From positions 1-45,455 of the IMG/VR virus record IMGVR_UViG_3300048586_000914: a stretch of 45,455 nt of DNA, one strand, 5' to 3'. The DNA is from a virus. The translations under genes and the position numbers were made by a program. Below are positions 1 to 45,455 of the stretch, piece by piece. The notes below the pieces were generated by a model that was not told the DNA's origin, made no database searches, and saw only the letters and a list, made by a program, of their open reading frames with translations. How positions within the stretch are numbered: the stretch's first letter is position 1; the number at the start of each line of letters is the position of its first letter.

Positions 1-1101
1 TCATCGCCCGAACCTTCCTTCGATTGCTGAAACGGCACCGTTTTGAAAATTGGGCGAGAGGTGCCAGTAGACTCGCGTGATCGTCTCGATAGAGGTGGCA
101 AAAAAGGCGCTCGCGTCCTCCACTGACGCCCCGCCCCTGATTGCCCACGTTATCGCCGTGTGCTTGAGGGTGTGCGGGGTCGGTTCCCATCCGAGCGCCG
201 CGTCGGCCACGATGGTCTGCCACGGGTTGAGGATTTCCGCGATTTTGCCACCGCGACCCTGAACAGCCCATTCATCGCCCGCACGGTGCCACCGCCGCGC
301 GTGGGCAAGTAGCTGGCGGGGCAGACGGGCAGGCGTGCGGCGTTTCTTGGTCGCCACCTCTGCCGTGCCCATCCGGTAGAGGACGCCCGCGTTCAGGTCC
401 ATCCAGCCGCTATGCCGCTGCGGCCCGTCGAGGGCGACGTTCAGGACCGCCGCCTTGCGCGTGCCGGTGTAGATGGACACGAGGATGAAATGCGCGACGT
501 GCCGGTAGGTGCGCCCACGGGCACGGCAAGCCCACAACAGCTTTGCCACCTCGTCGCGCTCAAGGGCGCGCTGGTGCGTCTCGGGCGTGGCGGGCAGGGT
601 GACGGTCGGCGCGACCGCGATGTAGCGTTCGGCAAAGTTGTAGTTGATCGCGGCCTGCAACACGTTCAACTCGCGGCGTGCCGTGGCGGGCGCAATGGGA
701 TCGTAACGGATGATCTTGTTGCCGACCGACTTGATGGGTTTCTTGCGGGACGCGGCATAGGCACGGCAGGTCTGCCCGCTAATGTCGTTTGCAGTCTTGT
801 GCTGCCAGAACGGCAACAGGGCTTGAATGGCGTTTGCAATTCTCACCGGGTCGGCCACGGTCGGCGCGTGTTCCTCTGCATAAAGGGCGAGGATTTCGGC
901 CACCGTTATGTCCTCGGGCTTTGCCGGTTCGTCGCGCCGGTTCTTGGCTGCGATGTATTCCCCGAGTTGCCTTTCAGCTTCGACAAGGCTGCCCGTGCCC
1001 GTGCTGCGCTCGAATCCACCGGTGTCCTTGATGACCCAGGTTGACTCCCTACCTTTTCGTTCCCGCAAGACGAGGCGGGCACCTTTGGCTGGCATCGGCA
1101 T
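1..1101 (-). CDS. int: tyrosine-type site-specific integrase
   Basis: Phage integrase of the tyrosine recombinase family, about 366 aa, which would recombine attP with a tRNA-Arg attB. The C-terminal catalytic domain shows the first arginine in TGTRKAAVL, the beta-hairpin lysine region (ATKKRRT), the H-x-x-R-H box as HTLKH, and the nucleophile tyrosine in RVYWHL near the end. The second catalytic arginine is therefore a lysine, which is unusual. The open frame extends further upstream, but that part is low-complexity shadow translation of the preceding genes. The ATG at 1101, or a second at 1095, is the sensible start. The gene overlaps the excisionase-like gene by about 196 bases. Its stop codon is at the window edge, facing the predicted intact attachment site just outside, and the matching tRNA fragment lies at the other end. 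Identity is secure; the start is uncertain. Confidence 0.93.
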   Translation of the reverse strand: MPMPAKGARLVLRERKGRESTWVIKDTGGFERSTGTGSLVEAERQLGEYIAAKNRRDEPAKPEDITVAEILALYAEEHAPTVADPVRIANAIQALLPFWQHKTANDISGQTCRAYAASRKKPIKSVGNKIIRYDPIAPATARRELNVLQAAINYNFAERYIAVAPTVTLPATPETHQRALERDEVAKLLWACRARGRTYRHVAHFILVSIYTGTRKAAVLNVALDGPQRHSGWMDLNAGVLYRMGTAEVATKKRRTPARLPRQLLAHARRWHRAGDEWAVQGRGGKIAEILNPWQTIVADAALGWEPTPHTLKHTAITWAIRGGASVEDASAFFATSIETITRVYWHLSPNFQNGAVSAIEGRFGR

Positions 1102-1259
1102 TGTTCCAACAACTCCATGATTTCTGATTCGAGTATTCTGGACTGTGCGCCCACTTTTATCAGAAATCCATAGGAGAGTGCTGCCTTTGCCAAGGGTTTC
1201 TCGGGCAGCCCGAGGCGTTCCGCCGCCTCTGCGATGGTGAGAAGGACGCGCCCGGTCAT
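906..1259 (-). CDS. excisionase-like helix-turn-helix protein
   Basis: A 117-aa protein whose first 55 residues look like a winged-helix/MerR-like excisionase domain (TIAEAAERLGLPEKPLAKAALS, then a wing and ESEIMELL). The remaining half is polar, Ser/Arg/Gly-rich and probably disordered. It starts with an ATG that overlaps the TGA of the upstream gene (ATGA), so it is translationally coupled. It extends 196 bases into the integrase gene in another frame. Position directly before int and the HTH suggest a recombination directionality factor (Xis) that bends attachment-site DNA. This is inferred from context and fold. It could instead be a small repressor. Confidence 0.6.
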   Translation of the reverse strand: MTGRVLLTIAEAAERLGLPEKPLAKAALSYGFLIKVGAQSRILESEIMELLEQCRCQPKVPASSCGNEKVGSQPGSSRTPVDSSAARARAALSKLKGNSGNTSQPRTGATNRQSPRT

Positions 1260-1585
1260 GGCGCGACCCGCAGCGCGAATATGTCCTGACGCATGGACAC
1301 CAGCACGCGGTGATCCTCGTTGCCGAGCGCGGCGGGCTTGTGATCGTTGCGGGACCAATGCCCGCTAACGGATGACCACGGTGTGCCTTCCTCAAACAGC
1401 CCGCATGTGAAACAGACGCGGACGTTGCCGTATTCGATGCTGTCCCGATAGGCGACGATGTTGTGCGGGCATTCCGCCTGCACCGCAGCCGCGACGGCGG
1501 CAAGTTCAGCGTTCGCGGCCTTGACGGCATTGATCGCTTCCAACAGGGCAGGGTGACGTGCCCGCAGATCGCGCTTTTCGGTCAT
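1256..1585 (-). CDS. hypothetical small protein with C-x2-C motif
   Basis: A 109-aa protein of unknown function. Residues 1-35 form an Ala/Glu-rich helix likely to be a coiled coil (LLEAINAVKAANAELAAV). A region with four-odd cysteines and histidines follows (ECPH, then CFTCGLFEEG), which could bind a metal. The ATG at 1585 overlaps the stop of the methyltransferase-like gene (ATGA), and its own TGA overlaps the start of the excisionase-like gene, so it is an internal cistron of the leftward operon. The longer frame starting at 1618 would run back into the upstream gene and is not preferred. I do not recognise a family. Confidence 0.6.
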   Translation of the reverse strand: MTEKRDLRARHPALLEAINAVKAANAELAAVAAAVQAECPHNIVAYRDSIEYGNVRVCFTCGLFEEGTPWSSVSGHWSRNDHKPAALGNEDHRVLVSMRQDIFALRVAP

Positions 1586-21251: not shown

Positions 21252-22993
21252 CAGTTGCCCCTCGCGCCCATCTTGACGGCCTGCGCCATTTCCGCCTGAA
21301 TCTGCGACCGCGACTTGCGGAAGCTGTTCGCATCAGGGGTCGAAATGTTGAACGTCACGTTGATGACCTGCCCGCCCTTGCCCGAGGGCGAGCGGTGATC
21401 CTCAACCGTTTCATCCGAGTGCAACAGCGCGAGGCGACCGCCCTTGCCGTCCACACCACCCACGCGCGGACCCGACCAGGTGTCGCCGCCACCGTCAAAG
21501 GACGGCATTGCCGTGGGCACCGTCGCGCCCATGCCGGTCAGGCCCCCGAGGATGCCGCCCGCGAGGCTGCCCGCGAGGCTGTTGAACACCGGGGTCATCA
21601 GTATGTCGATCACCTTGTCCGCGACGGACCCGAGCAAATCCATCGCCACCTCTGCGAACGACTTGCTGCCATCCGCGAGTGACTTGAACGCGGCCAGCAT
21701 GGACGACGAAATCGACTTTTGCATGTTCTCGAAAGTCGTCTCAACCTGATCGGCGGCAGCCGTCGCCGCGTCAGCCGCAGCCCCGGCACCAGTCGGGTCG
21801 CCACCGGCAGGACCGCCGAACGGCGACACGGGCGGTGCATCACCACGCGCGAGGGCGTCCTTCAACGCCTGCCACGCCGCCCGCGTGTTCGTCCACGAAC
21901 CAGCCGTTGCAGCCGCGTCGGCCATCATCGACTCGTGCGCCGCTTGCGAGGTGGCCGACAGAGCGTTCAGTTCCGCGATGGGTCCGTTGAAATCCCACGA
22001 CCCCATCGCCGCGATAAACGCCCGCAAGAGCGGATGCCGCGCCAGACCGCGAAAGAACGTATTCGCCGCAAAGAGCGCCGACGCGAGGGCTGCGGTGAAT
22101 GTCGCAACCATGTATTGCGTCATCGCGCCCCATTCCGACGAGAATTGCGACATGTAATTGCCGATGTCGTCAAAGACCGCCGAAAACAGGTTGCCCAAGA
22201 GGACCATCGCATTGCCAAGCCCGCCCGCGCCCTTGGCGAGCGTCAGGAAGCGTTCGATCAGGTAGGACACGGCAAGGATGATGGCGGGCAGCCCGAGGCG
22301 GATCAGGGCGGTGCGCAGGATCGACAGGGCGGCAGAGAATGCGGACGTGGCGAGGGTCGCCGCTGCGGCTGCCGTGCCCGACATCGCATAGACGAGCGCC
22401 GTGGCCCGCAGGACGTTGCTGAACGCCCCCGTGGTGATCGTGGCGGTGATGACAGCCGCGACCCACTTGACCCCGAACCAGCCCGCCGTGACGGCCATTG
22501 CGATGACGATGGTGTCAAGGTTCTCGATCAGGAACCGGCCCACCGTGCCCATCATGTCGCCCACGGCCTGAATCGCCGCGACCAGCCCGCGCAACTCGTT
22601 TTCGACCGCGCCGAAATACGGGTAAAGCTGGTTGAGCGCCACGCCCGACTTGGTGATCCCGATGGCGAGCGAACCAAAGATCGCAAGCGCCGCCGCAGCC
22701 ATTGCACCGAACGGCCCAAAGAATTGCAGGATTTGCCCGCCCTGTTGCGTGAACGCGAGCATTGCGGACTGACCGCCCGCAATCTGGATGGCAAAGTCGG
22801 ACATTTGAAAGCCGACTTGCTGGATCATGCGCCGGTTGCTGTTCAGGCCCGCGTTCCACGAGCGCATGAGCGGCCCGGTCTGTTGCACCTGATCCCGCAT
22901 CGACTGGACGCCACGGTTGAAACCGGCAATTGCCGGTCCCGCCGCGTTCGTGGCGCTGATCTTGAAGTTGACGCCTTTGATCATGCTGGACAT
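21251..22993 (-). CDS. tail tape measure protein
   Basis: A 580-aa tape measure protein. The N-terminal 60 residues are helical (FKISATNAAGPAIAGFNRGV). Long Ala/Gly/Ile-rich hydrophobic segments follow (AMAAAALAIFGSLAIGI, LGLPAIILAVSYLIERFL), and the C-terminal region has FADGSKSFAEVAMDLLGSVADKVIDILM, GSLAGGILGG and an RVGGVDGKGGRLALLHSDE motif typical of lambda-H-like and GTA tape measures. It is short, so the tail should be short for a siphophage (order of 80-90 nm, using about 0.15 nm per residue as a rough rule). It lies right after the frameshifting chaperone genes, as expected. Confidence 0.9.
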   Translation of the reverse strand: MSSMIKGVNFKISATNAAGPAIAGFNRGVQSMRDQVQQTGPLMRSWNAGLNSNRRMIQQVGFQMSDFAIQIAGGQSAMLAFTQQGGQILQFFGPFGAMAAAALAIFGSLAIGITKSGVALNQLYPYFGAVENELRGLVAAIQAVGDMMGTVGRFLIENLDTIVIAMAVTAGWFGVKWVAAVITATITTGAFSNVLRATALVYAMSGTAAAAATLATSAFSAALSILRTALIRLGLPAIILAVSYLIERFLTLAKGAGGLGNAMVLLGNLFSAVFDDIGNYMSQFSSEWGAMTQYMVATFTAALASALFAANTFFRGLARHPLLRAFIAAMGSWDFNGPIAELNALSATSQAAHESMMADAAATAGSWTNTRAAWQALKDALARGDAPPVSPFGGPAGGDPTGAGAAADAATAAADQVETTFENMQKSISSSMLAAFKSLADGSKSFAEVAMDLLGSVADKVIDILMTPVFNSLAGSLAGGILGGLTGMGATVPTAMPSFDGGGDTWSGPRVGGVDGKGGRLALLHSDETVEDHRSPSGKGGQVINVTFNISTPDANSFRKSRSQIQAEMAQAVKMGARGN

Positions 22994-28201: not shown

Positions 28202-28743
28202 TATCTGAAACCGATCATCAGCGTGTTGTTGGTTTTGCGCCGCCCGGTAATCGGGTCAGCCTCGCGTCCGAGTTCCGCGAGATAGTATTCGCGCCAGTCG
28301 GTCAGTTCCTTGACGGACATTTTGGTGATCGACCGCGACTTGATGGTGTAGGACTCAACGTCCTGTTCGGCGCGGCCCGAGAGGATCGACTCGATCTTGT
28401 CCACCATCAGGCGGGCGTGCGAACGCCGGTCGGCGTCATTCGAGAAACAGGCGACCGACATCGTGCGCAGGACGCGGGACTCGTCGTCGGCCAAGCGGAT
28501 GACCACGAGGTCGGCGGTGTTCCGACCGTGGCGCATGTCCTGGGTGACGGTGCCCGAGGCGGTGAATGTCCAGACGCCATCGACCGACGCCCCGGCGATT
28601 TCGCGGGTCGTGCCGCCCGAGGCGAAAACGTATTTGAGGCTGAACAAGCTGGCGTCATATTCGTCGGGGATCGTCCACGCGACGAAATGGCCGATCACGA
28701 TGCTGACCGGTTCGCCTTCAATCGGTTCAAAAGGATCAGCCAT
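28201..28743 (-). CDS. gpW-like head connector protein with N-terminal extension
   Basis: A 180-aa protein between terminase and portal, the lambda W position. The C-terminal 65 residues fit the gpW pattern (DVESYTIKSRSITKMSVKELTDWREYYLAEL). The N-terminal 110 residues form an extra beta-rich domain (VSIVIGHFVAWTIPDEYD, VWTFTASGTVTQDM), which gpW (68 aa) lacks. The connector stabilises packaged DNA before FII and the tail attach. The start at 28743 is chosen because the frame above it is shadow sequence, and it overlaps the terminase end. Confidence 0.65.
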   Translation of the reverse strand: MADPFEPIEGEPVSIVIGHFVAWTIPDEYDASLFSLKYVFASGGTTREIAGASVDGVWTFTASGTVTQDMRHGRNTADLVVIRLADDESRVLRTMSVACFSNDADRRSHARLMVDKIESILSGRAEQDVESYTIKSRSITKMSVKELTDWREYYLAELGREADPITGRRKTNNTLMIGFR

Positions 28744-30556
28744 TTTTCCACCCGTTGACCCAATCGGTGCCCTTGCGCGGTGCCGGTTTCGCGGGCTTGG
28801 CCTTGGGCATGACCTTTTCGAGTTCACGCTTGGCGTATTCACGCATGGATGCGCGCCGTTGTGCGTTTACATCGACCGACAGCATTTCAAACGCCGCAGT
28901 AGCATAGACCCGGTTATCGAATGGTTCATTGCGCGGACGGATTTTGTGCCAAACCAGTTTCTTGAAGCCCTTGACAAAGGTCGTGCGCAATTCCTCTGCG
29001 GTCAGGCCCCGGAAATAGTCATCGCCATAGCTGGCCGGAAAGGCGCAATATCCCGCCTCGTCTGGACCTGCCGCGAGGCGCGCGACGACCAATTCCTTGA
29101 TCGTGTCCACCCCGAGCGGGAAAACCTGGGTGCCGTCGAGGTTGTTTTTCGATGGCTTGCCGACCATCGGCTTGCCGGTGCCGCCGATACCCTTGATCGG
29201 GACGACGCGGGACATCGACCGGCAGAATTTATAGACCGATTGGGTATAGTGACCGCCCGAGTCCATGCACGTCATCCGGGGCGAGATTTCCCCGAACAGA
29301 GGGTGCATGAACGACTGGTTCAGGTAGGTGCGCAGGGCAGCCCACGGTTCCGGCGTCGAGAGGTCGCCATAGATCGTGTGATATTCAATCGACCATGTGC
29401 GATGGTCGTTGCCCCACCCGAGGGTTTCAATCTCGAAACGGTCGTCCTGAACGTCCACGCCTCGGGTCAGGATGGTCACGGCCTCGGGCACCGGGGTCGC
29501 GTAGTCCTCGCGCTGCGCCAGCAGATCGGACCATTCGGTGCGCTTGCCCGCGTCCTGCCACACCTCGCCCAAGAACGTGTTGACCCACGTTTTCATCAAC
29601 TCGGGGTCGCCCTTGGCGTCGAGGAAGTCGCGCACGCCATCGGCCAGAGGCGCGAACCGACTGTAAAGCTGCGACAGGTGATAGGACAGGTTGCCGTTGA
29701 ATGGCTTTTGCGCGACCCAATGACCGGCGCGCACCGCCTCGATCCGCATCAGGTCGTCCCAATGCTCACCGCAATGCTCGCACTCGTAAACTGCCGTCTC
29801 GGGGTCGTTGTCGGTCCATTTGACTTGCGACCATTTCAAGACCTGCAACGCGCCGCACGCGGGGCAGGGGCACCACCTCTGCCGCATGTCGCCGCGCTCA
29901 TATTCGACCATGATCCGGCTGGTGTTCGCGTTCCCCGGCGTCGAGACGAACACCAGCACGCGGTTCCAGTAGGTCGTGGTCCGCTTGACGGCCAGGTTGA
30001 TCGGGTCGCCTTCCGTCCCGGCGCTGCGCTCAAACCGGTCCACCTCGTCGGCCAGCAGGACGCGGACGGGTCGGGACGCCAGACCTGTCGGCGCGTTCGC
30101 CCCCACGAGCGACAGCACGCCACCGGGGAATTTCTTGCTGCGGATCGTGTTGCCGCTGTCCCGCGACTTGGCGTCCTTGACCAGATTGCGCAGGACCGGC
30201 GTGTCCCGCAGCATCGGCGCGAGCCGTTCCTTGCTGAACATTTCCGACGACTCGATGGTCGGACTGACGTGCAGGATGGGGCAGGGGTCGCGGTGCATGA
30301 AATACCCGACCACGTTTTCGACAAAGGACGACTTGCCGACCTGCGCCGATGTCATCAGCGTGACGCGGCGCACCCCCGGCTTGCCGATCATGTCCATCGG
30401 TTCCCGCAGGTATTCCACCATGTCGGTGCGCCACCGACCGGGCGATGCGGACGACTCTGCGGACAGACGGCGGTATTCGTCAGACCATTCGGAAACGGTC
30501 TGATCTGGTGGCGGTGCAAGAACCGAAAGAACGGCCCTGATCAGCCGTTCGGACAT
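28736..30556 (-). CDS. terminase large subunit (lambda gpA-like)
   Basis: A 606-aa lambda gpA-type terminase. The ATPase domain opens with MTSAQVGKSSFVENVVGY (Walker A-like, QVGKS) and has ILHVSPTIESS, a Walker B in VRVLLADEVDRF, and FVSTPG as coupling motif. A zinc finger follows (CPCPACGALQ, then CEHCGEHWDD). The nuclease domain starts at TRGVDVQDDRFEIE, with acidic residues in MDSGGH and a late D. The family makes staggered cuts at cos, so this phage probably has cohesive ends. The start overlaps the o-spanin gene by 16 bases. Confidence 0.94.
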   Translation of the reverse strand: MSERLIRAVLSVLAPPPDQTVSEWSDEYRRLSAESSASPGRWRTDMVEYLREPMDMIGKPGVRRVTLMTSAQVGKSSFVENVVGYFMHRDPCPILHVSPTIESSEMFSKERLAPMLRDTPVLRNLVKDAKSRDSGNTIRSKKFPGGVLSLVGANAPTGLASRPVRVLLADEVDRFERSAGTEGDPINLAVKRTTTYWNRVLVFVSTPGNANTSRIMVEYERGDMRQRWCPCPACGALQVLKWSQVKWTDNDPETAVYECEHCGEHWDDLMRIEAVRAGHWVAQKPFNGNLSYHLSQLYSRFAPLADGVRDFLDAKGDPELMKTWVNTFLGEVWQDAGKRTEWSDLLAQREDYATPVPEAVTILTRGVDVQDDRFEIETLGWGNDHRTWSIEYHTIYGDLSTPEPWAALRTYLNQSFMHPLFGEISPRMTCMDSGGHYTQSVYKFCRSMSRVVPIKGIGGTGKPMVGKPSKNNLDGTQVFPLGVDTIKELVVARLAAGPDEAGYCAFPASYGDDYFRGLTAEELRTTFVKGFKKLVWHKIRPRNEPFDNRVYATAAFEMLSVDVNAQRRASMREYAKRELEKVMPKAKPAKPAPRKGTDWVNGWKNG

Positions 30557-31784: not shown

Positions 31785-32093
31785 TTATTTGTCCTCGTCA
31801 TCGACCCCGAGGCGCTTGCGCAGAAATGCCGACATGAATTTCTCGTTGGCGAATAGCGCGGTCGCAGCGTCGAGAAAGATCAGACCGAACGCCATCACGC
31901 CAACAGCGGCAAGAGCCTCACCCAATCCAAGATAAAGAGCGACATCGGACGACAGGCCAAACCCGAGTGTGGCAGACGCGGCAGTTTTGCCGACGCGGCT
32001 GACAATGCTTTCCGCCTTGGGCGTCCGAAAGAAGAACCAGACCGACATGCCCGCAATGACGGCCCAATACTCCGGTGATTTATTGTCCATCAT
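31785..32093 (-). CDS. holin candidate
   Basis: A 102-aa membrane protein with two to three hydrophobic segments (WAVIAGMSVWFFF, ASATLGFGLSSDVALYLGL, LAAVGVMAFGLIFLDAATALF) and a charged C-terminus (RKRLGVDDEDK). It lies between terS and the endolysin and resembles alphaproteobacterial phage holins. Several starts cluster here (TTG 32102, ATG 32099, 32093, 32090). AAGG lies nine bases before 32093, and the closely spaced starts recall dual-start holin/antiholin genes. The assignment rests on topology and position. Confidence 0.7.
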   Translation of the reverse strand: MMDNKSPEYWAVIAGMSVWFFFRTPKAESIVSRVGKTAASATLGFGLSSDVALYLGLGEALAAVGVMAFGLIFLDAATALFANEKFMSAFLRKRLGVDDEDK

Positions 32094-32607
32094 CGTCATC
32101 AACCTTGTCCCGCCAATCGTCGGCCAATTCGGTCAAGGCATCGTGGACACCCTGTTTGAGTTCGGTCGTCACCACGTTCAGATCGGTCTGACGAGCGATG
32201 ATAGGTGCCAGCTTGGTCGGCAGTTGCAGCAAGCGCGTGCGGACCCGCATCAGTATGTCTTGCCACGCGGTTTCGACCGACGCGGCGTCCAGCAATTCGC
32301 CTTCCGCAACGCGGTTCTCGCGCTCAACCTTTTCGGCCTGCGCCGTCTTGAGGCGGGTTTCGGCGGTCATCCCCTGACCGTCACCGCCGTCGAGACGTGG
32401 CCGACCGACACGCTTGTTGCCACGCACCTCGATCAGCCATTTGCCGAACGCCCTGGCGGGATAGGACTTGTCAGGGTTGCGAGGTGGCGGGTTGTCTTGC
32501 TTGTCCCAAAGGATTAACGACTGGACACTGACACCGGCCAGGACCGCAGCCGCGTCCTGCGCCATGTCGAAGTCGCCGCCGATCACCTCGATACTTGCCC
32601 GTGCCAT
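32080..32607 (-). CDS. terminase small subunit (Nu1-like)
   Basis: A 175-aa Nu1/DUF1441-like small terminase. The N-terminus is a winged-HTH (FDMAQDAAAVLAGVSVQSLILWDKQDNPP, ARAFGKWLIEVRG), and residues 80-150 form the helical oligomerisation region (TRLKTAQAEKVERENRVAEGELL, AWQDILMRVRTRLLQLPTKLAP). It binds cosB and recruits the large subunit. In lambda-like phages the binding sites lie just upstream, which here is the repeat region from 32650 upward. It is the first gene of the late operon, has GAGGG before the ATG, and overlaps the holin-like start. Confidence 0.88.
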   Translation of the reverse strand: MARASIEVIGGDFDMAQDAAAVLAGVSVQSLILWDKQDNPPPRNPDKSYPARAFGKWLIEVRGNKRVGRPRLDGGDGQGMTAETRLKTAQAEKVERENRVAEGELLDAASVETAWQDILMRVRTRLLQLPTKLAPIIARQTDLNVVTTELKQGVHDALTELADDWRDKVDDDDGQ

Positions 32608-32660
32608 GCCGACCCTCGCGTGTCGGAACGCATTTAGAGGGTCAGCTTTAAGACAACAAA

Positions 32661-32765
32661 AACCGACAGAACGGTTGTTTTCAGGGAGTCAAGCGAAAAG
32701 GCCAGATAGCGGGATAGTCACGGTTCCGGGCGCCATTTTACCGAGTCAAGCGGTAATTTTACTGG
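32661..32765 (-). promoter_or_regulatory. candidate late-operon control region with dyads
   Basis: Upstream of terS there are two dyads: AACCG-N6-CGGTT at 32661-32676 and TTACCG-N7-CGGTAA at 32738-32756, the latter followed by TTTTACTGG to 32765. A minus-strand TTGACT lies near 32695-32690 but has no good -10. The words TTTTACCG and TAATTT(T)ACTGG recur together at 38093-38131 upstream of another transcription unit, which suggests one regulator for both. No start site can be fixed by eye. Confidence 0.4.
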
Positions 32766-32840
32766 ATTCCGGCCGATTTGGCTGAAAAAACCTCAAAATT
32801 TTTGTAGCTAGAAATCAAACGAGGTCGCGCGTTACCCCCG

Positions 32841-33219
32841 GCGCAATAATGTTGCACAGGACCCGTGATTCGCGCAAGATTCTTGCGTGCAACAATCGTT
32901 CGCCGCACGGTATGAGTCGCGCAATAATCGTTCGCGCAAGAATGTTGCGCACGATAGTTGCGTATGAACGCCGTCCAGCGCACCAATGTTGCGCGCAAGA
33001 TCATGTCGAGTCGGGGTATGAGTCGCGCAACAATCCTGCGCGCACGATAATTACCCGACCACGCAATAATCATGCGCGCACGATAGTTGCGCGGGATGAC
33101 CGGCAGACGACATGATCGGTCGCGCACGATAGTTGCGCCCCGTGAGCCTCGGGCGCACGATAGTTGCGCGCAAGAATGTTGCTCCTAAACGCAACTATCG
33201 TGCGTCAAAATAGTAGCGC
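32841..33219. repeat. cluster 1 of a 17-bp interrupted palindrome, GCGCA-N7-TGCGC
   Basis: About 17-18 units of the form GCGCA-N7-TGCGC, where N7 fits [A/C]NA[A/T][T/A]N[T/G]. Starts lie near 32841, 32872, 32887, 32903, 32919, 32934, 32947, 32978, 32993, 33025, 33040, 33061, 33076, 33122, 33153, 33168, 33189 and 33203. Most successive starts are 15-16 bp apart or a multiple of that, so neighbours overlap in TGCGCGCA. Spacers come in reverse-complement pairs (CGATAGT and ACTATCG). Four units are identical (GCGCACGATAGTTGCG). Arms are degenerate in some units, often on one side only. This looks like arrayed binding sites for a dimeric DNA-binding protein. Confidence 0.85.
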
Positions 33220-33272
33220 GACTCGTGGTCATGCGGGTCACGTTTCGCACCTTGATTCGCCCTTGGCGCGGG

Positions 33273-33349
33273 TCGAGGGTCGAGGGTCGAGGGTCGAGGG
33301 TCGAGGGTCGAGGGTCGAGGGTCGAGGGTCGAGGGTCGAGGGTCGAGGG
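33273..33349. repeat. 7-bp tandem repeat TCGAGGG, 11 perfect copies
   Basis: Eleven exact copies of TCGAGGG run without interruption, and related copies reappear at 33790-33830 beyond the next array. Each unit supplies a GGG run separated by TCGA, so the plus strand matches the general G-quadruplex pattern (four GGG tracts with 4-base loops) many times over. The unit is not a multiple of three and no gene is expected. Confidence 0.95.
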
Positions 33350-33350
33350 T

Positions 33351-33416
33351 CGCACCTGGTGGCGCACCTCGCACCTGGTGACGGGTCGCACCTGGTGGCG
33401 CACCTCGCACCTGGTG
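33351..33416. repeat. four copies of CGCACCTGGTG
   Basis: CGCACCTGGTG begins at 33351, 33370, 33387 and 33406, that is, at 19, 17 and 19-bp steps. The block GGCGCACCT precedes the second and fourth copies. It links the 7-bp array to the 11/12-bp array and probably arose by the same slippage or unequal recombination. Confidence 0.9.
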
Positions 33417-33420
33417 GCGC

Positions 33421-33762
33421 AGGCGAGGCGCAGGCGAGGCGCAGGGACGGGCGCAGGCGAGGCGCAGGGACGGGCGCAGGGACGGGCGCTGGGACGGGCG
33501 CAGGCGAGGCGCTGGCGAGGCGCAGGCGAGGCGCAGGGACGGGCGCAGGCGAGGCGCAGGGACGGGCGCAGGGACGGGCGCAGGGACGGGCGCAGGCGAG
33601 GCGCAGGCGAGGCGCAGGACGTGGCGCAGGCGAGGCGCAGGCGAGGCGCAGGCGAGGCGCAGGCGAGGCGCAGGGACGGGCGCAGGCGAGGCGCAGGCGA
33701 GGCGCAGGGACGGGCGCAGGCGAGGCGCAGGGACGGGCGCAGGCGAGGCGCAGGCGAGGCGC
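33421..33762. repeat. 342-bp array of 30 units of two types (11 and 12 bp)
   Basis: The stretch parses completely into 30 units: type A, AGGCGAGGCGC (11 bp, 18 units), and type B, AGGGACGGGCGC (12 bp, 12 units); 18x11 plus 12x12 is exactly 342. The order is AABABBBAAABABBBAABAAAABAABABAA. Single variants occur at unit 7 (TGGGAC), unit 9 (TGGCGAG) and unit 18 (AGGACGTGGCGC). The strand is strongly G-rich. There are no unique spacers, so it is not a CRISPR. Its variable order suggests a fast-changing minisatellite. Confidence 0.95.
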
Positions 33763-33796
33763 AAAGCGAAACCCGCCACGGGTTAGCGTGGCGGGT
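33763..33796 (-). terminator. intrinsic terminator of the small-gene operon
   Basis: A perfect 10-bp stem (ACCCGCCACG at 33771-33780 with CGTGGCGGGT at 33787-33796) with a 6-base loop is followed on the minus strand by TTTCGCTTT. It lies 36 bases past the last small ORF and directly before the repeat array, so leftward transcription should stop before entering the repeats. Confidence 0.8.
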
Positions 33797-33831
33797 CGCG
33801 GGTCGAGCTGTCGAGGGTCGCGGGTCGAGGG

Positions 33832-33930
33832 TTAGAACATCAAGCCGATTGCCACACCTAGCGCCATGCCGCGCGCTGTCGGGTATCGCATCAGGAACAG
33901 AGCCGCGCCAATGGCGAGTCCGAGTCTCAT
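33832..33930 (-). CDS. 32-aa hydrophobic peptide
   Basis: A very short ORF whose ATG overlaps the stop of the 93-aa gene before it (ATGA). The peptide is mostly hydrophobic (LGLAIGAALFLM, then GMALGVAIGLMF) with two or three arginines and could span the membrane once or twice. It is the last cistron before the terminator. Stop-start coupling and composition support it, but its size makes it tentative. Confidence 0.45.
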   Translation of the reverse strand: MRLGLAIGAALFLMRYPTARGMALGVAIGLMF

Positions 33931-34208
33931 GCTATCGCACCTCGCCGGATTTGCAGCGCATCAGAGGGCGTGCGCTTGATGACGCGCGGGTCATATCCAA
34001 TCCGCGCCAATTCCGTCCCAAGGTCGCGCCATTCGTCAGGCGTGGCGGGTCGGGTCGATTGGATGACGTGTTGAGGGTCGCACGATCCGTGTTGACCAAT
34101 GGTCTGATAACACGCGCACGAATAGGGGTCATTGGTTCCGGGTTGATCAATCAACACCGCCACGACATCGCCTTGCGGATAGACCCGCATCAAAACCCGG
34201 TCAGACAT
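33927..34208 (-). CDS. hypothetical protein
   Basis: A 93-aa protein in a leftward operon of small unknown genes. It starts with a strand SDRVLMRVYPQGDVVAVLID, has a cysteine pair (SCACYQ) plus another Cys in HGSCDPQHV, and ends in a helical DEWRDLGTELARIGYD and a basic tail. The start at 34208 is preferred because it overlaps its upstream neighbour by 8 bases while the longer frame is shadow sequence. No family recognised. Confidence 0.55.
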   Translation of the reverse strand: MSDRVLMRVYPQGDVVAVLIDQPGTNDPYSCACYQTIGQHGSCDPQHVIQSTRPATPDEWRDLGTELARIGYDPRVIKRTPSDALQIRRGAIA

Positions 34209-35898: not shown

Positions 35899-36341
35899 CT
35901 GTCGTCACCTTTTCGCGTGATGTGTGACCACAAATTACAAAATAACGGAAGGTCAGTAAAGGACTCAAAGTAACGTCAAAACTACTAGCGCGCAACAATC
36001 TTGCGCAAGCTGGCAACTATCTTGCGCGCAAGAATAGGCCAGGAACACGCAACAATCTTGCGAGGTCGGGTAATTACCTTGCGCGCACGATTATTCCAGG
36101 TTCAGGTAAGATTGTTGCGCGCACGATTATTGCGCAGGTCGGCAATTTTATGACCGACAGTAAGTTGCGGGACTCACCCCGAGTCGCGCACGATTGTTGC
36201 GCGCAACATTGTGAGGCGAATCGGCCAGGCAGCGCAACAATCGTGCGCGCACGAAAATGACCGATTCGCGCAAGAATGTTGCGCGCCAGGGCTGATCAAA
36301 CTAACCCCTTGGGCACACCGGAAAAAACCCGGAAAAAACCG
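35899..36341. other. 443-bp non-coding region with palindrome cluster 2
   Basis: The region contains no gene. The right side of the small-gene operon (35899-35973) is AT-rich with possible promoter elements on the minus strand. From 35974 to 36284 it is filled by the 17-bp palindromes, and 36305-36341 holds two copies of CGGAAAAAACC. Confidence 0.7.
35974..36284. repeat. cluster 2 of the GCGCA-N7-TGCGC palindrome
   Basis: About 14 units with the same arms and N7 spacer rule as cluster 1, starting near 35974 (degenerate), 35990, 36011, 36026, 36047, 36068, 36083, 36104, 36119, 36140 (degenerate), 36186, 36201, 36232, 36247 and 36268. Best units are GCGCA-ACAATCT-TGCGC (35990), GCGCA-CGATTAT-TGCGC (36119), GCGCA-CGATTGT-TGCGC (36186), GCGCA-ACAATCG-TGCGC (36232) and GCGCA-AGAATGT-TGCGC (36268). 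The two clusters bracket the small-gene operon about 2.8 kb apart. Confidence 0.85.
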
Positions 36342-36385
36342 CTACATGACGGCGGAAAAAACCCCGGTAGCAGCGGAAAAAACCG
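36319..36385. repeat. four copies of CGGAAAAAACC
   Basis: CGG-A6-CC begins at 36319, 36330, 36353 and 36374. The first two lie downstream of the 158-aa gene and the last two inside its 3' end, where they encode repeated VFSA. On the minus strand they are T6 tracts between CGG/CCG arms, so they could aid termination or DNA bending. Confidence 0.75.
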
Positions 36386-39644: not shown

Positions 39645-39854
39645 GTGACAAGTGAGACGGAAAAGTTGAAGGCCGAGATTGCCAGACTCAAGACCCAATA
39701 CGTCAACGCCCGCCTCGCGGGATGGCTGGACGGATACCAGCATTGCGCCGACACGGCCAAGGCACTTGCCGCGAACGCCGACACGCCTCTGGTCGCTCGC
39801 CTACAGCATACCGCCGCGTCTCACCGTCACACGATCCACGGCCCGCGACATTAG
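39645..39854 (+). CDS. hypothetical coiled-coil protein
   Basis: A 69-aa protein with an N-terminal coiled coil (TSETEKLKAEIARLKTQYVNARLAGWLDGY) and a second helix (CADTAKALAANADT). A GGGAG sequence lies before the GTG start. It ends with a 4-base overlap with the convergent primase gene and no terminator is visible between them, so transcripts may run into each other. Unknown function. Confidence 0.55.
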   Translation: MTSETEKLKAEIARLKTQYVNARLAGWLDGYQHCADTAKALAANADTPLVARLQHTAASHRHTIHGPRH

Positions 39855-42052
39855 CGGACGATGTAGTGTTGGGCGCGGCAGTAATCGTCCACTGTCTCGC
39901 CCGGTGCGGACGGCAGCTTATAGAGGACGGGTCGTTTCCCGTCCTCTTGTTCAATGGGCTGCCAAGCGCGCTCAAACCGTCTGTATCCCATTGCTTCCAA
40001 TATCTTGCCGTGCTTGTTCCGACCGATGCGAATGCCACGGTCGCGCATCAGCCGGTCGAGCGCCCACGACGAAACCCATCCGCCCCGGAAGCCCACGGTG
40101 TTGTCCTCTGCCGCTTCAAGGATTTCTTGTTCCACGCCGCCAAGCGATTCACCGATGGACTCCTCTGTCGATGTCGTCGTGGGCGCGCGATGGCACGAGG
40201 TGGCCGGGTTGAGGTCGTCCGGTATCTGGTAATTCTTGAGGTAGTGGCCGACCGCAGAATAACCGCCATCCCGCAGCCAATCATAGAGGTCGGGGAAATA
40301 GCGCCCGGTCATCCCGTCCCGCACCAGATCGTCCGTTGATTGCTGCGCCGTGAAGAATATCGCATAGCGCCGATCATTGCGGGATTTCAGCACGGCATCC
40401 TTGTAATTGGTGCAGAACGCCCAATTCGCCAGATTGCGGATCAACCGCTGATCTGCGCCTTTGCGTTCGGCCTCAATCTCGATGTTCGTGATCATCGTTT
40501 TGAGGTCGTCCAGTATTTCCCGGCGACCGTTCATATGGATTTCTTCAACGAGGATAAACAGCTTGTTTTCGACCCATCCGTTGAATTGCCCGCCAAGCAA
40601 TTTGGCGCGCGGCTGGTGCGTGTATTGCCGACCGACAGCGTAGGACACGCACGACAACAGCGCCGTCTTGCCGTTGCCCTCGCACCCCTGCACGACCGGT
40701 GCCCACTGGAATTTGACGCCGGGATACTGGACGACCGCCGCCATGTAGGCCACGAGGATCGACCGGTCGCGCTCGTCGGGCAACAGCTTGCACATCAGAT
40801 CGAGGAACCGCGACACGTCGCCCTGGGTGATGTCCACATCGGGCGGCATGTAGGCGTTGACCGTGCCATCGTTCAGGATCAGGCCGAACGCCAGATCGGG
40901 GCGGAAACAGGTCGTGATCGCCTGCGGAAACCGGGTCGCCTTGTTTTGGGTCAGCGCCTTGAACGCATCGTCGGTCGGCTTGGTCCCGTCAGGCATCATC
41001 TGGAACATATGCCCGCCATAGGTGGCGTTGAATTGTTCGGGCTTGAGCATCCGCCCGTCAGGGATCAGCACGCGGTGAGCATCCGAGATATAGACGCATC
41101 CCCGAAAGTGTTCCTGCATTTCGGGCACCGTCAGATACACCTCGGGCACCCCGTCAGCGCCAGCTTGCGCCGCAGCCGCGACCGGGGCAGGGCGGTCATA
41201 GACGGTCTTGCAGAGGCGGGCGGCGTTCTGCACGGTGTCGCGCCGGTAATCCTCGCGGCGCTCATACTTGTCCCGCATCAGCGCCGACCGGCGAAACAGG
41301 CGGTCCATCCGGGGCATGTCCCGGCCCGTCCAGAACGCGAGGTGCGCCATCAGCGCCGCGTCGGCAGAGGACCGGTCGAAACCGCCCGACCCGTCGAACG
41401 CCGGATAGATGCGCGCCAGCTTGGCGGCGTCGGCATTCCAGAGGTCGGCGGCAGAGGCACGCATCCCGAACGCGGCACCGGCCCCGCCCGACCGCAGCAT
41501 CAGCGCCAGCAACGCCTCGTCATCCACCGGCCCCGTATAGCGCGGATCGACACCCTCGGGCAGATCGCCAAGGTGTTCACGCTGCGGCACCACCTTGAGA
41601 AGCGTATCGGTAAAGTCGCGGTCGATCTGGACGCCACCAATGGGTGCCCATCCGGTTCCGCCAAAGGCGACAAACCTCTGATCGGTGTAACACTCCAACC
41701 ACCCATCCCATTTGTTCCTTCTGTCCGCGAGGCGCGACGGGTCGCAGCGCCCGATGATGTGAAGGCCCGTGCCTGATTGGGACACCTCGCCCAATGCACC
41801 GGCAAAGCTGGTAAAGATCGCCACGGCCTCGGGCTTCCACGCGCCATCGACCGCGCACTTGTCCAGATCGAGGAAGAACAGCCCGTCCTCGCGCCTGATG
41901 TCGAACGCCACCGGCAGACCCGAGGCGACCGCCGTGGCGTAGTCGGTGTGATTGGCCGGATCGTGGGCATCGCAGATCGTGCCGTCCCGCAGGCATGGCA
42001 TCTTGCGACCGTCCACGAGACGCCAATTGAGGAACCGGGGCGGCAGGTTCAT
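39851..42052 (-). CDS. AEP primase-polymerase/SF3 helicase fusion
   Basis: A 733-aa replicative primase-helicase. The N-terminal bifunctional primase-polymerase domain has the metal-binding DLD in FFLDLDKC (about 61-64), the nucleotide-binding SGTGLH (about 93-98) and a following FVAFGGTGW. The C-terminal superfamily 3 helicase of the D5/DUF5906 type has Walker A GCEGNGKT (456-463), Walker B LFILVEEIHM (about 498-507) and a later NWAFCTNY sensor. A winged-helix-like end follows (WVSSWALDRLMRDRGIRIGRNKHGKILEAMGY). It would prime and unwind DNA for the family B polymerase. It is last in a minus operon that begins near the attachment site with luxI and fic. Confidence 0.92.
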   Translation of the reverse strand: MNLPPRFLNWRLVDGRKMPCLRDGTICDAHDPANHTDYATAVASGLPVAFDIRREDGLFFLDLDKCAVDGAWKPEAVAIFTSFAGALGEVSQSGTGLHIIGRCDPSRLADRRNKWDGWLECYTDQRFVAFGGTGWAPIGGVQIDRDFTDTLLKVVPQREHLGDLPEGVDPRYTGPVDDEALLALMLRSGGAGAAFGMRASAADLWNADAAKLARIYPAFDGSGGFDRSSADAALMAHLAFWTGRDMPRMDRLFRRSALMRDKYERREDYRRDTVQNAARLCKTVYDRPAPVAAAAQAGADGVPEVYLTVPEMQEHFRGCVYISDAHRVLIPDGRMLKPEQFNATYGGHMFQMMPDGTKPTDDAFKALTQNKATRFPQAITTCFRPDLAFGLILNDGTVNAYMPPDVDITQGDVSRFLDLMCKLLPDERDRSILVAYMAAVVQYPGVKFQWAPVVQGCEGNGKTALLSCVSYAVGRQYTHQPRAKLLGGQFNGWVENKLFILVEEIHMNGRREILDDLKTMITNIEIEAERKGADQRLIRNLANWAFCTNYKDAVLKSRNDRRYAIFFTAQQSTDDLVRDGMTGRYFPDLYDWLRDGGYSAVGHYLKNYQIPDDLNPATSCHRAPTTTSTEESIGESLGGVEQEILEAAEDNTVGFRGGWVSSWALDRLMRDRGIRIGRNKHGKILEAMGYRRFERAWQPIEQEDGKRPVLYKLPSAPGETVDDYCRAQHYIVR

Positions 42053-42054
42053 GC

Positions 42055-42927
42055 TTAGAACAACCAGCCGATCAGCACGAAACCGTCGCCACCGCGACCA
42101 CCCACACCCCCGGTCGTGCCCGCGCCACCGCCGCCACCGCCCGACCCCCGCGCACCATAACCGCCCTTGCCGCCGACGCCGGTATTGCTGGACCCGCCAC
42201 CGCTGCCACCCGTGAAGGTCGGCGGCAGCCAGAGTTCATACCCGGCGTTCCCATCGTTCGATCCGGCAAGCCCGCCCGCGATGGTCGGTGCCAGGCCCGC
42301 AGCCGTGACCGCACCACCGGCAAAGTCTGCCGATGTCGTGCCGCCACCGCCCGCGCCGCTGGACACGATCACACCGGACCCGCCGAACGCCACCGCAGCG
42401 CCCGCCGCGCCAGCTTGACCACCACCGGCACCGCCGCCCTGGCCCGCGAGCGACACGAACGCCCCGAGGCTGGAATAGGGGCACGAGGTGCCCGCCACCA
42501 CGGCACCGGCAGAACCAGCCGCACCGACCGCCGCAGCCGCGCCGTTGCCGCCAAGACCACCGCCCCGACCGATCAGCAACAGGGACGCCGCCGCCGTGGT
42601 CGAGCGCAGGGCGACAAAGCTGTCACCGCCGACCGCCGCGATACCGCCAAGCCCCGGCTGGACATAGAGGACATCAGGCAAGAGCGCCGCGAGGATCGAG
42701 ATACGCGACATCGACGCGGACCCGCCACCACCGCCGCCACCACCGGCAGCCGCAGCCGCCCGCGTGAAGCCATTGCCACCGGCACCACCGCCGCCCACGG
42801 CGACGATTTCCAGCATCTTTGCGCCATAGGGCACGTTGAACGCCTGCCACTGGTTCGCACCCGTGCCCATCGGGTCGAACCGGCGCATCTGACCCGGTTC
42901 TTTCGGCAGGTAATGCGGGAAGGTCAT
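42055..42927 (-). CDS. glycine-rich tail fibre/adhesin protein
   Basis: A 290-aa protein in which most of residues 40-285 are Gly/Ala-rich, with runs like VGGGGAGGNGF, GGGGGGGGSAS and GKGGYGARGSGGGGGGAG. Such Gly-rich proteins of phage tails form polyglycine-II helical sandwiches in tip adhesins. The N-terminal 38 residues may be the attachment part. The end (GGDGFVLIGWLF) is hydrophobic, a typical trimerisation or assembly end. It would bind the host receptor. The DNA is naturally repetitive here because of the Gly codons. Confidence 0.75.
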   Translation of the reverse strand: MTFPHYLPKEPGQMRRFDPMGTGANQWQAFNVPYGAKMLEIVAVGGGGAGGNGFTRAAAAAGGGGGGGGSASMSRISILAALLPDVLYVQPGLGGIAAVGGDSFVALRSTTAAASLLLIGRGGGLGGNGAAAAVGAAGSAGAVVAGTSCPYSSLGAFVSLAGQGGGAGGGQAGAAGAAVAFGGSGVIVSSGAGGGGTTSADFAGGAVTAAGLAPTIAGGLAGSNDGNAGYELWLPPTFTGGSGGGSSNTGVGGKGGYGARGSGGGGGGAGTTGGVGGRGGDGFVLIGWLF

Positions 42928-43349: not shown

Positions 43350-43979
43350 TCAATTCGTGTATGCGTTCTGGCCCATCGCCAGGGTCAGCCCGAGGTTGAC
43401 CACGCCATCGGCGCCATCGGCACCGGCTGGACCCGTGGCACCCGGCGCACCGTCAGCCCCGTCCGCGCCATCGGCACCGGCTGGACCCGTGGGACCGGCA
43501 ATCGCGGGGATCGTGACCGTCACCACCCCGCCCACGTTCGTGACGGTCACGCCCGTCCCGGTGAAGTCGAGTGTGGTCAGGGCGGTCGTCAGGGTCGTGC
43601 CCTCGTCCTTGACCGTGACCGACCCGCCGCCAGACGACAGGGACAGCGTGACCCATGCGGTGCCATCCCACGACACGAACGAACCAAGGGCGGCGTTCCA
43701 CCCAAGCCATCCGTTGCGCGGCGTGAAGAACACCCACCCGCCCGAGAGGCGCAGGGCGACCTTGTTCGTCTGCCCGGCCCACGCCCCGGTCGCGCCGGTC
43801 GGCACGATGTATTTGTCACCCTCTGCCGGTGATCCGGGCGGCGTGGTGATCGCGCCCGAAATGACATTGAGTTGCAACAGGGCGTCGAGGCGCATGAACG
43901 CCTCGTTGGCGGTGACGTGCTTTTGCGCCTGCGCCGCTTGCAAAAGGGTGATATTCGCCTGCGGGGTCGTGGTCATCAT
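43350..43979 (-). CDS. DUF2793 tail fibre protein with collagen-like repeats
   Basis: A 209-aa protein whose first 115 residues match DUF2793, common in alphaproteobacterial phages (LLQAAQAQKHVTANEAFMRLDALLQL, EGDKYIVPTGATGAWAGQ, NGWLGWNA, WDGTAWVTL). Residues 160-195 contain about ten collagen-like Gly-X-Y triplets (GPTGPAGADGADGADG, GAPGATGPAG), so the protein is likely a trimeric fibre. The last 15 residues are the tip. It lies downstream of fic with an ATGA overlap. Confidence 0.85.
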   Translation of the reverse strand: MMTTTPQANITLLQAAQAQKHVTANEAFMRLDALLQLNVISGAITTPPGSPAEGDKYIVPTGATGAWAGQTNKVALRLSGGWVFFTPRNGWLGWNAALGSFVSWDGTAWVTLSLSSGGGSVTVKDEGTTLTTALTTLDFTGTGVTVTNVGGVVTVTIPAIAGPTGPAGADGADGADGAPGATGPAGADGADGVVNLGLTLAMGQNAYTN

Positions 43980-44500
43980 TTCACCCTGAATTGCGCCTGC
44001 ACGTCATAATCACCGGACGTGTCGAAACGCTTAACCCTGCGGTCGTGCGCCTCAAGCGTCTGGTAATGAAAGCATTGCAGGAAACCCAATTCGCGGTGCG
44101 GTCGGTCGATCTGGCGTTCCATCATCCACAACCAGATCGCACGGCCAGATCGCCCATTGCCGTCCGTAAACGGATGCAGGTGTTCATAGGCACAATAGGC
44201 GTCGTGCGCGTCGATCATGCCGGTGACGATCCGCGCGTTCAGATCGGCAAGCGCCCGCCCGATCTGCGGCCCGCCTTCCGGTGCCATGTGCCGACCGACG
44301 CGGACGTTCAGGCCCGGTTCGGTGCGCAGGCTGTTCCCCGGCGCGACGGCACCGACGAACACCTTGAGCGGTTCGATCCCCACGTCACCGGCCAGGAACG
44401 TCGTGTGCGCTTGGTATTCGGTCTTGGATGGGTCGCGGTCGATCCCCTCGATCCGGTTCGATTCGATGATGAAATTGTAAAGCCACGTCTCGATCCTCAT
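43976..44500 (-). CDS. class II Fic domain protein (AMP-transferase)
   Basis: A 174-aa Fic protein. The active-site motif is HPFTDGNGRSGR (residues 109-120), a complete match to HxFx(D/E)GNGRxxR. The N-terminal helix has SNRIEG (residues 14-19), the (S/T)xxxE(G/N) inhibitory motif, so it is a class II, self-inhibited Fic. The flap strand region is HMAPEGGPQI (71-80). Such enzymes usually transfer AMP to a protein side chain. A short N-terminal arm suggests no extra targeting domain. It starts in an ATGA overlap with the AHL synthase and ends in ATGA with the DUF2793 gene, so luxI, fic and the fibre genes share a message. Its target is unknown; toxin, host-takeover or antidefence roles are possible. 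Confidence 0.92.
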   Translation of the reverse strand: MRIETWLYNFIIESNRIEGIDRDPSKTEYQAHTTFLAGDVGIEPLKVFVGAVAPGNSLRTEPGLNVRVGRHMAPEGGPQIGRALADLNARIVTGMIDAHDAYCAYEHLHPFTDGNGRSGRAIWLWMMERQIDRPHRELGFLQCFHYQTLEAHDRRVKRFDTSGDYDVQAQFRVK

Positions 44501-45075
44501 GCCGCAATCCCCCACTGGTCCGGTCTGATCCCGGCACGCTTCAACAACACCTCGCGCTGGTCATCCGAGTATTGCCACACCCCGACGCCAATCTCGCCGT
44601 CCGTCCCGGCGACGACAGGTTCCGACCCGATCAGGCGATAGACCCGCAGCATCGGCATGGCGAACACGCCGACGAAATGGGTCACGTCATGCTTGCGCAT
44701 CAGTTCCCCGCCGCCGAACATCAGGGCCGACGCGATGCGATGGCTGGACCCCGGCGCGAGACAGAACCGCGTGCATTCCCACATCGCCGGGTCGCGGAAC
44801 GGATGGTTCCCGACGAGGTGCATGAAATGCTCGTTGATCATCGTGCGACCGGTCGTCGGCAGGAACCGCGCCGACCCGCCGTGCAGCCCGTCAGGACTGC
44901 GCCAGATCACATAGATGGGGTCGAGGTCGTCATACTGGTCGCGCTCGCGGCCCTCGTCATCGACCGTCACCGGCCACCCGAGGCGGTCGCGGAATTGCTT
45001 GGTGCGGTCGCGGAACATCGAGTCCCGCAACTCGGGATGCTGGTCGAGGTCGTGCCCGTGCAGGTAGAGCAACAT
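44497..45075 (-). CDS. LuxI-family acyl-homoserine-lactone synthase
   Basis: A 192-aa autoinducer synthase of the LuxI family, which makes N-acyl-homoserine lactones from S-adenosylmethionine and acyl-ACP. Family invariants are present in order and spacing: R24, F28, W34, D46, D49, R70, F84, E100 and R103 (in the stretches RDRTKQFRDRLGWPV, YDDLDPIYVIW, RFLPTTGRTM, WECTRFC). The C-terminal half (FVGVFAMPMLRVYRLIG, GVGVWQY) is the usual acyl-chain pocket part. No luxR gene exists in the window. The gene is coupled to fic (ATGA) and abuts the gene before it (TGATG). It is near the prophage end, a site for cargo genes, and may give the lysogen a signal or help the phage sense related hosts. Confidence 0.93.
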   Translation of the reverse strand: MLLYLHGHDLDQHPELRDSMFRDRTKQFRDRLGWPVTVDDEGRERDQYDDLDPIYVIWRSPDGLHGGSARFLPTTGRTMINEHFMHLVGNHPFRDPAMWECTRFCLAPGSSHRIASALMFGGGELMRKHDVTHFVGVFAMPMLRVYRLIGSEPVVAGTDGEIGVGVWQYSDDQREVLLKRAGIRPDQWGIAA

Positions 45076-45455
45076 CAGTTTGCCCCCTTGCGCCAGTTGC
45101 CGCCGCGACCCTTGCCCAAGAGGTGCAGGGTGCCTTTCTTGATCGACGCGCTGATGTTGTTGGGATGAATGCCGAGCGCCTTGGCAGCCGCCGCCCGCGA
45201 CGGATAGACCACGCCGTCAACCTCGGTTTCCTTGTATTTGCCCCGACCACCGTTCGCCCCCGGTTCGCCCCGTTTTGCGGTCGGAATCGGGCGGATTCGG
45301 TCAGGTTTCGTTTTTGGAAGTTGCTGGATTTCCAGAGACTTAGCGGTTTCCCGCTGCCCTCCGAAGGCAGAGGTCGCACGTTCGAATCGTGCTGGGTGCG
45401 CCAACTTCCCCTCATTGATCTCCCAGTTGTGACGGCTTGTCGCGTGACGGCGCAT
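45075..45455 (-). CDS. NUMOD1-like DNA-binding peptide, start uncertain, spans attachment site
   Basis: Only the C-terminal 55 or so residues look real: a NUMOD1-like helix-turn-helix (DGVVYPSRAAAAKALGIHPN, then NISASIKKGTLHLLGKG) with a basic tail. The frame stays open to the window end, but residues 17-35 (LAHPARFERATSAFGG) are an antisense translation of the tRNA-Arg fragment. The true start is probably internal, for example a GTG at 45212 with GAGG eight bases upstream (45 aa), or it lies in flanking DNA and differs between integrated and excised forms. The gene abuts luxI. NUMOD1 domains usually accompany homing nucleases, but no nuclease domain is present. Confidence 0.45.
   Translation of the reverse strand: MRRHATSRHNWEINEGKLAHPARFERATSAFGGQRETAKSLEIQQLPKTKPDRIRPIPTAKRGEPGANGGRGKYKETEVDGVVYPSRAAAAKALGIHPNNISASIKKGTLHLLGKGRGGNWRKGAN
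45354..45403 (+). other. 3' half of tRNA-Arg(CCG), predicted attachment site core (attR)
   Basis: The segment folds as the 3' part of a tRNA: anticodon arm CTGCC-CTCCGAA-GGCAG (anticodon CCG), variable loop AGGTC, T arm GCACG-TTCGAAT-CGTGC, acceptor strand TGGGTGC, discriminator G and an encoded CCA. The D arm and 5' acceptor strand are missing upstream. Phages often integrate into tRNA 3' ends and leave such a duplicate. The intact gene should lie just left of base 1, beyond the integrase. Sequence right of 45403 would then be host DNA. Confidence 0.85.

Follow-up and report, generated by a model that had tools for sequence, protein, structure and literature searches.

Why should eleven letter-perfect copies of TCGAGGG stand in a row beside the packaging genes of a tailed phage, and does the phage make use of them? 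The DNA analysed here (the window), 45,455 bases long, is the record of a temperate tailed phage with a gpA-type terminase, and also encodes portal, capsid and tail proteins (Table 1). Its late genes start with terS (32607) and run downward on the minus strand, which also has small frames above 33927. Going from the small genes to terS, the 1.3-kb gap contains a hairpin, the repeat block, an array of a 15-bp palindrome and a conserved element. The hairpin (MFE -25 kcal/mol over a 51-nt stretch, z -3.8 vs shuffles) is likely the terminator of the small-gene operon. The heptamers thus lie between this terminator and the late (terS) operon, as an earlier note on this DNA had stated.

Table 1. Coordinates of the features discussed in the text.
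Feature	Position	Strand	Remarks
Integrase	1-1530		phrog_1
Terminase large subunit (TerL), gpA type	28736..30556	-	phrog_15, E 8.5e-238; tblastn to lambda A
Terminase small subunit (terS)	32080..32607	-	phrog_57
cosN GGTAACGCGCGACC	32823..32836	-	left virion end inferred at 32836
15-bp palindrome CGCAANAWTNTTGCG, 12 copies	32842..33204	.	at most 1 mismatch; first copy between cosQ and cosN
cosQ GGGTCCT	32858..32864	-	identical to lambda
Heptamer array GGGTCGA/TCGAGGG, x11.9	33270..33352	+	TRF, period 7, 100% match including partial end copies
36-bp unit, x2	33347..33418	+	97-100% identical; joined to the heptamers without break
11/12-bp array, GGCGCAGGCGA / GGCGCAGGGACG, x~30	33416..33763	+
Hairpin, 10 pairs	33771..33796	-	weak T tail
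Degenerate GGGTCGM heptamers	33793..33832	+	far side of the 11/12-bp array
Second CGCAANAWTNTTGCG cluster, 7 copies	35991..36283	.	at most 1 mismatch
Primase	39851-42052

Other features were noticed towards the right edge of the window. At the end opposite the integrase (~45389-45455), a stretch resembling by eye the 3' end of a tRNA is likely an attachment site; ARAGORN reported no tRNA there. A gene for a LuxI/TraI-type acyl-homoserine-lactone synthase (44497-45075, minus strand; Pfam Autoind_synth, 5e-22) has distant, partial matches in only four phage records. Between it and the gene of a DUF2793 protein sits a Fic/DOC-family gene (43976-44515, minus strand; E 2e-5, just above Pfam's cut-off).

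Direct comparison with the window recovered the eleven perfect copies, 77 bp in all, exactly at 33273-33349. The longest exact period-7 run has 76 matches, whereas 100 dinucleotide shuffles of the window gave 11 at most; the repeat is no accident. The heptamers are the left segment of a compound, strand-biased tandem block of ~500 bp (33270-33763); its 36-bp and 11/12-bp segments, like the degenerate heptamers beyond them, were absent from the earlier note. Near-identical units follow one another head to tail, in the manner of a minisatellite, and a 92-bp tandem duplication (98%) is nested inside the 11/12-bp array. The degenerate heptamers beyond that array look like the remnant of an older tract, which the other arrays would have split. 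The block is non-coding. A coding role of the array was considered and rejected: the open frames across it are of low complexity and, because units of 7, 11 and 12 bp are not multiples of 3, no reading frame is kept.

The nearby packaging signals resemble those of lambda. The TerL of the window can be aligned with lambda gpA at 31%, and in both phages cos directly precedes terS-terL. The 7-bp cosQ, the same in both, is described in the available portion of the source as highly conserved and required to end packaging (PMC4669245). The distance from the start of cosQ to the inferred cut is 28 nt (lambda: 30), and the cosN overhang would measure up to 14 nt. Its sequence is unlike that of lambda, where the right end reads GGGTCCT...TTACG and the left end starts with GGGCGGCGACCT. 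The string GGTAACGCGCGACC...TTGATTTCTAGC (32836-32807, minus strand) had zero chance matches in shuffles; it was found in five viral contigs, always before terS, and in one MAG contig. A looser cos pattern with GGGTCCT in front was found in 34 contigs. Contig ends of relatives point to the same place. Those of L019, L030 and L031 start exactly at GGTAACGC, and L032/L129 open with what is presumably sequencing adapter, followed by GGGAACGCGCGACC. In all, 28 of the 99 terminase-bearing loci start with GGT, vs ~1.5 expected at random, many of them exactly at the cos site and many with a CTAGCGACAGAA-like sequence after GGT. Judged from the identity of cosQ, the conserved string, the relatives' contig ends at cosN and the gpA-family terminase, the site is a lambda-type cos. 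With the left virion end placed by the relatives' contig starts, the distance from the heptamers to the right cohesive end would be 437-513 bp. Lambda has neither a palindrome array nor a repeat block in its last 1.2 kb, whereas the window has both on its right-end side.

The sequence of the block is not found again in relatives. (TCGAGGG)4 occurs in only three other viral contigs, none of them among the terminase relatives, and the 11-bp unit (x2.7) matched no viral contig. No match was obtained for 32600-34000 with blastn in phages or plasmids, for 28-40 kb with megablast against phages, or in an Rfam search; a second copy of the repeat locus was not found in the viral contig, phage and plasmid searches. 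Close relatives sought through TerS gave 11 pattern matches, of which zero were confirmed. In the literature, as far as the text available to the search extends, no published description of a TCGAGGG repeat was found; the matches listed for the bare string came mostly from unrelated molecular biology and are uninformative. Moreover, L013 and L024 (71 and 63% TerL identity, respectively) keep the cos site and are missing the block. They share with the window another element, a repeated GGTTTTTTCCGG / CCGGAAAAAACC (window 36318-36385, L013 2247-2314, L024 246-300), also found in L179. The length of the spacer appears to be free, since L106 has ~30 bp from cosQ to the end of the frame running up to it (by eye), vs ~930 bp from hairpin to cos in the window.

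What recurs is the place. Of the 45 loci that have both cosQ and cosN, the window and five of the other 44 carry a strong array (TRF score of at least 100) in the kilobase preceding cosQ, with differing units (L020 and L066, 20 bp; L104, 11 bp; L100, 5-6 bp; L035, 24 bp). Without the window, this 7.9% of the sequence holds 5 of 8 strong arrays (p 1.4e-4, a value resting on eight arrays only and on some closely related loci); lower cut-offs gave 5 of 13 (p 0.002) and 6 of 23 (p 0.008). For this test of 44 loci, L030 and L075 were dropped because their cos matches were false, and L071, L083, L087, L093, L039 and L040 because they were duplicates; the set did not take in L060, L019 and further loci whose motifs are shifted, and some, such as L013, had been added by hand. 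In a separate comparison of loci, L087, L071, L073, L075, L085 and L083 were dropped as near-duplicates. Assemblies break at repeats, and three of the five same-place arrays reach the edge of their contig. Contig G012 breaks between two arrays (L179 edge, 30 bp x3.4; L020 edge, 20 bp x6.1), and among 13 far contig ends checked, L179 alone had an array at its edge. The array of L100 (240 bp of CCTGCG/CCTGTG/CCTGC units) stands between a terminator-like hairpin, seen by eye, and cosQ, and has three 10-mers in common with the arrays of the window, CCCTGCGCCT, CGCCTGCGCC and GCCTGCGCCT. That of L104 consists of 19.6 copies of CCTGATGCCAG. At the remaining loci the spacer is absent or unique in sequence, and a TRF array was found in none of eight isolate right ends (lambda, RcHotPocket, FoX1, Mica, PPpW-3, MQ-4, KLER1-1 and Vibrio phi 2).

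Over the 99 TerL loci, the 2.5-kb stretches upstream of TerL (117 kb in total) contain 11 strong arrays, and the remaining 864 kb contain 5. These counts include the coding array of L033, a possibly coding one in L161 (69-bp period), the origin-like TGAGCTTTTCC of L099, L100 and L125, and the L154 and L165 arrays, close to TerL and probably after cos; L020 is scored as elsewhere. The L033 array was rejected because it proved coding. Direct repeats of the TGAGCTTTTCCA type (L099 2049-2123, L100 3976-4065, L125 7715-7803, L110 1-70) are located 1.3-1.9 kb before cosQ in L099, L100 and L125 and at the contig start in L110; it is possible that they are origin iterons.

The reading that we favour, with a probability of a little under 0.6, is that the heptamers are part of a minisatellite born of slippage in a right-end spacer that tolerates it. 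The exact repeat, its nested structure, its position in the series hairpin-cosQ-cosN-terS, the lack of sequence conservation and the recurring place all support it. The compound array would grow by replication slippage and unequal recombination in a non-coding stretch close to the right chromosome end of a lambda-type cos phage. Arrays would arise, lengthen and be replaced in this spacer, which presumably tolerates changes in length because it contains no gene. The heptamer run would be the segment of youngest appearance within the block. The ability of the G-rich strand to form hairpins or quadruplexes may aid slippage, as a cause of growth and not as a selected function. Short, G-rich, foldable and unstable units are also known from minisatellites of the GGCAG/GGCAGG type (mouse Pc-1; cited in the accessible part of PMC2248197), although these are eukaryotic and their unit is not identical to that of the window. 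Right-end repeats of the Rhodobacter capsulatus RcD phages, as portrayed in the accessible part of PMC8601537, are alike by description. Against a minisatellite and nothing more, it should be noted that selection could explain why arrays recur at a single place and why several of them are C-biased on the strand that is read in the direction of cos, and that the window and L100 arrays have 10-mers in common. The copy number in the window comes from one contig only.

The strongest alternative to the minisatellite, still doubtful at roughly half its weight or less, is an insulator of transcription. Leftward transcripts escaping the weak hairpin would be stopped by the RNA of the block, either through Rho-type loading or through a repeat terminator, before they reach cos and the terS/late operon, and late expression would need antitermination. 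Both orientation and position suit such a role. In the direction of transcription the RNA of the block is C-rich and G-poor, as expected of a rut site, and the top 78-nt stretches of the whole minus strand for C minus G (33265-33342, 33535-33612 and 33686-33763, the third tying with 22279-22356) all lie in the block. However, the plus strand of a Gly-rich gene region shows a similar excess (0.423 at 42089-42166), and because it comes so close the measure is not specific. A C bias is also seen in the arrays of L100, L029 and G012 (L179), whereas it is weak or nil in those of L104, L020 and L035; the idea that the spacer is generally C-skewed was rejected, as it holds in only part of the 44 loci. 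Moreover, the spacer array is missing from many relatives. A precedent exists in the Caulobacter crescentus GTA, where, according to the available portion of PMC11150451, three 150-bp GC-rich direct repeats form a strong, proven terminator bypassed by GafZ antitermination. This terGTA likewise places GC-rich tandem repeats before structural genes in an alphaproteobacterial phage-like cluster, but its units contain inverted repeats, it stands behind the first gene and its function was shown by reporters (PMC11150451, same portion), whereas the units of the window are short.

Other explanations appear less probable still. Repeats ahead of a terminal cos might slow or register the motor so that cosQ/cosN are recognised, and the block does belong to the final ~1 kb to be packaged ahead of termination; yet relatives with the same cos have no block and lambda has no such repeat at its right end, which makes a packaging aid improbable. 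The packaging site of the earlier note survives as a neighbour, with the cos 437 bp away. Chi-type protection of the end was set aside, since we take the polarity of the G-rich strand to be wrong for entry at the right end. The G-quadruplex pattern announced for the plus strand is real: the canonical G3N1-7 motif (four G3 runs, loops 1-7) occurs three times on that strand of the block, in the heptamer array, at 33467-33498 and at 33559-33590, and the prediction for that strand is slightly better than for a hairpin. The energies are nevertheless near-equal (-29.9 vs -28.0 kcal/mol, RNA parameters), because the TCGA spacers also self-pair. Such motifs are not especially frequent in the phage: the whole window has 5, vs 3.66 on average in shuffles (max 8). 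Same-place arrays in L104 and L020 are devoid of GGG runs. A quadruplex acting as a polymerase block or as an origin mark is chemically possible but unsupported, and we consider it very unlikely; the block's absence from relatives and the close energies speak against the maintained element suggested earlier, and no evidence was found for an origin at the heptamer. Least probable of all is an assembly artefact, either a wrong copy number or a k-mer loop. The window is a single metagenomic contig and long near-identical units are apt to collapse, but the 83-bp heptamer run is flanked by differing sequence on each side and is short enough for a typical short read.

Beside the presumed minisatellite, the palindrome array is probably the more important element. 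With 2 mismatches allowed, CGCAANAWTNTTGCG has 37 strand-wise matches vs 5.9 expected, and in the window as well as in L023 and L024, one copy sits between cosQ and cosN. A paired-motif scan retrieved 17 contigs, in 10 of which the array precedes a terminase gene. Three unrelated types are represented: gpA (L024), phrog_51/phrog_2 (L043, L044, L047, L048, L053, L054) and phrog_9 (L046, L058 and L052, the last with a ParB-methyltransferase gene between). In the other seven, nine query proteins found no terminase; L045, L056 and L057 are alike. From its placement, the array looks like a common, putative operator of late operons. A GafA/GafY/GafZ site was considered and rejected, with no matching site among the GTA activator sites in the descriptions available.

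A joint role for both elements is conceivable, if rather unlikely: the right-end spacer would be a roadblock indifferent to sequence, for which any C-rich, G-poor array serves, combined with the 15-bp operator array common to three terminase types. If so, early transcripts would not reach cos or the late operon before an antiterminator is at hand, arrays would re-arise at the same spot since any of that composition would do, the palindromic operator array would cover cos and the start of the late operon, and a common, perhaps host, regulator of packaging genes would be implied.

By itself, a phage minisatellite is ordinary. Nevertheless, in a large group of uncultured lambda-like phages the cohesive end becomes readable from contig ends, and the spacer before cosQ emerges as a hot spot for tandem arrays, which may account for the breaks of some contigs there. 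This spacer is also a defined place for asking whether arrays terminate transcription ahead of late operons.
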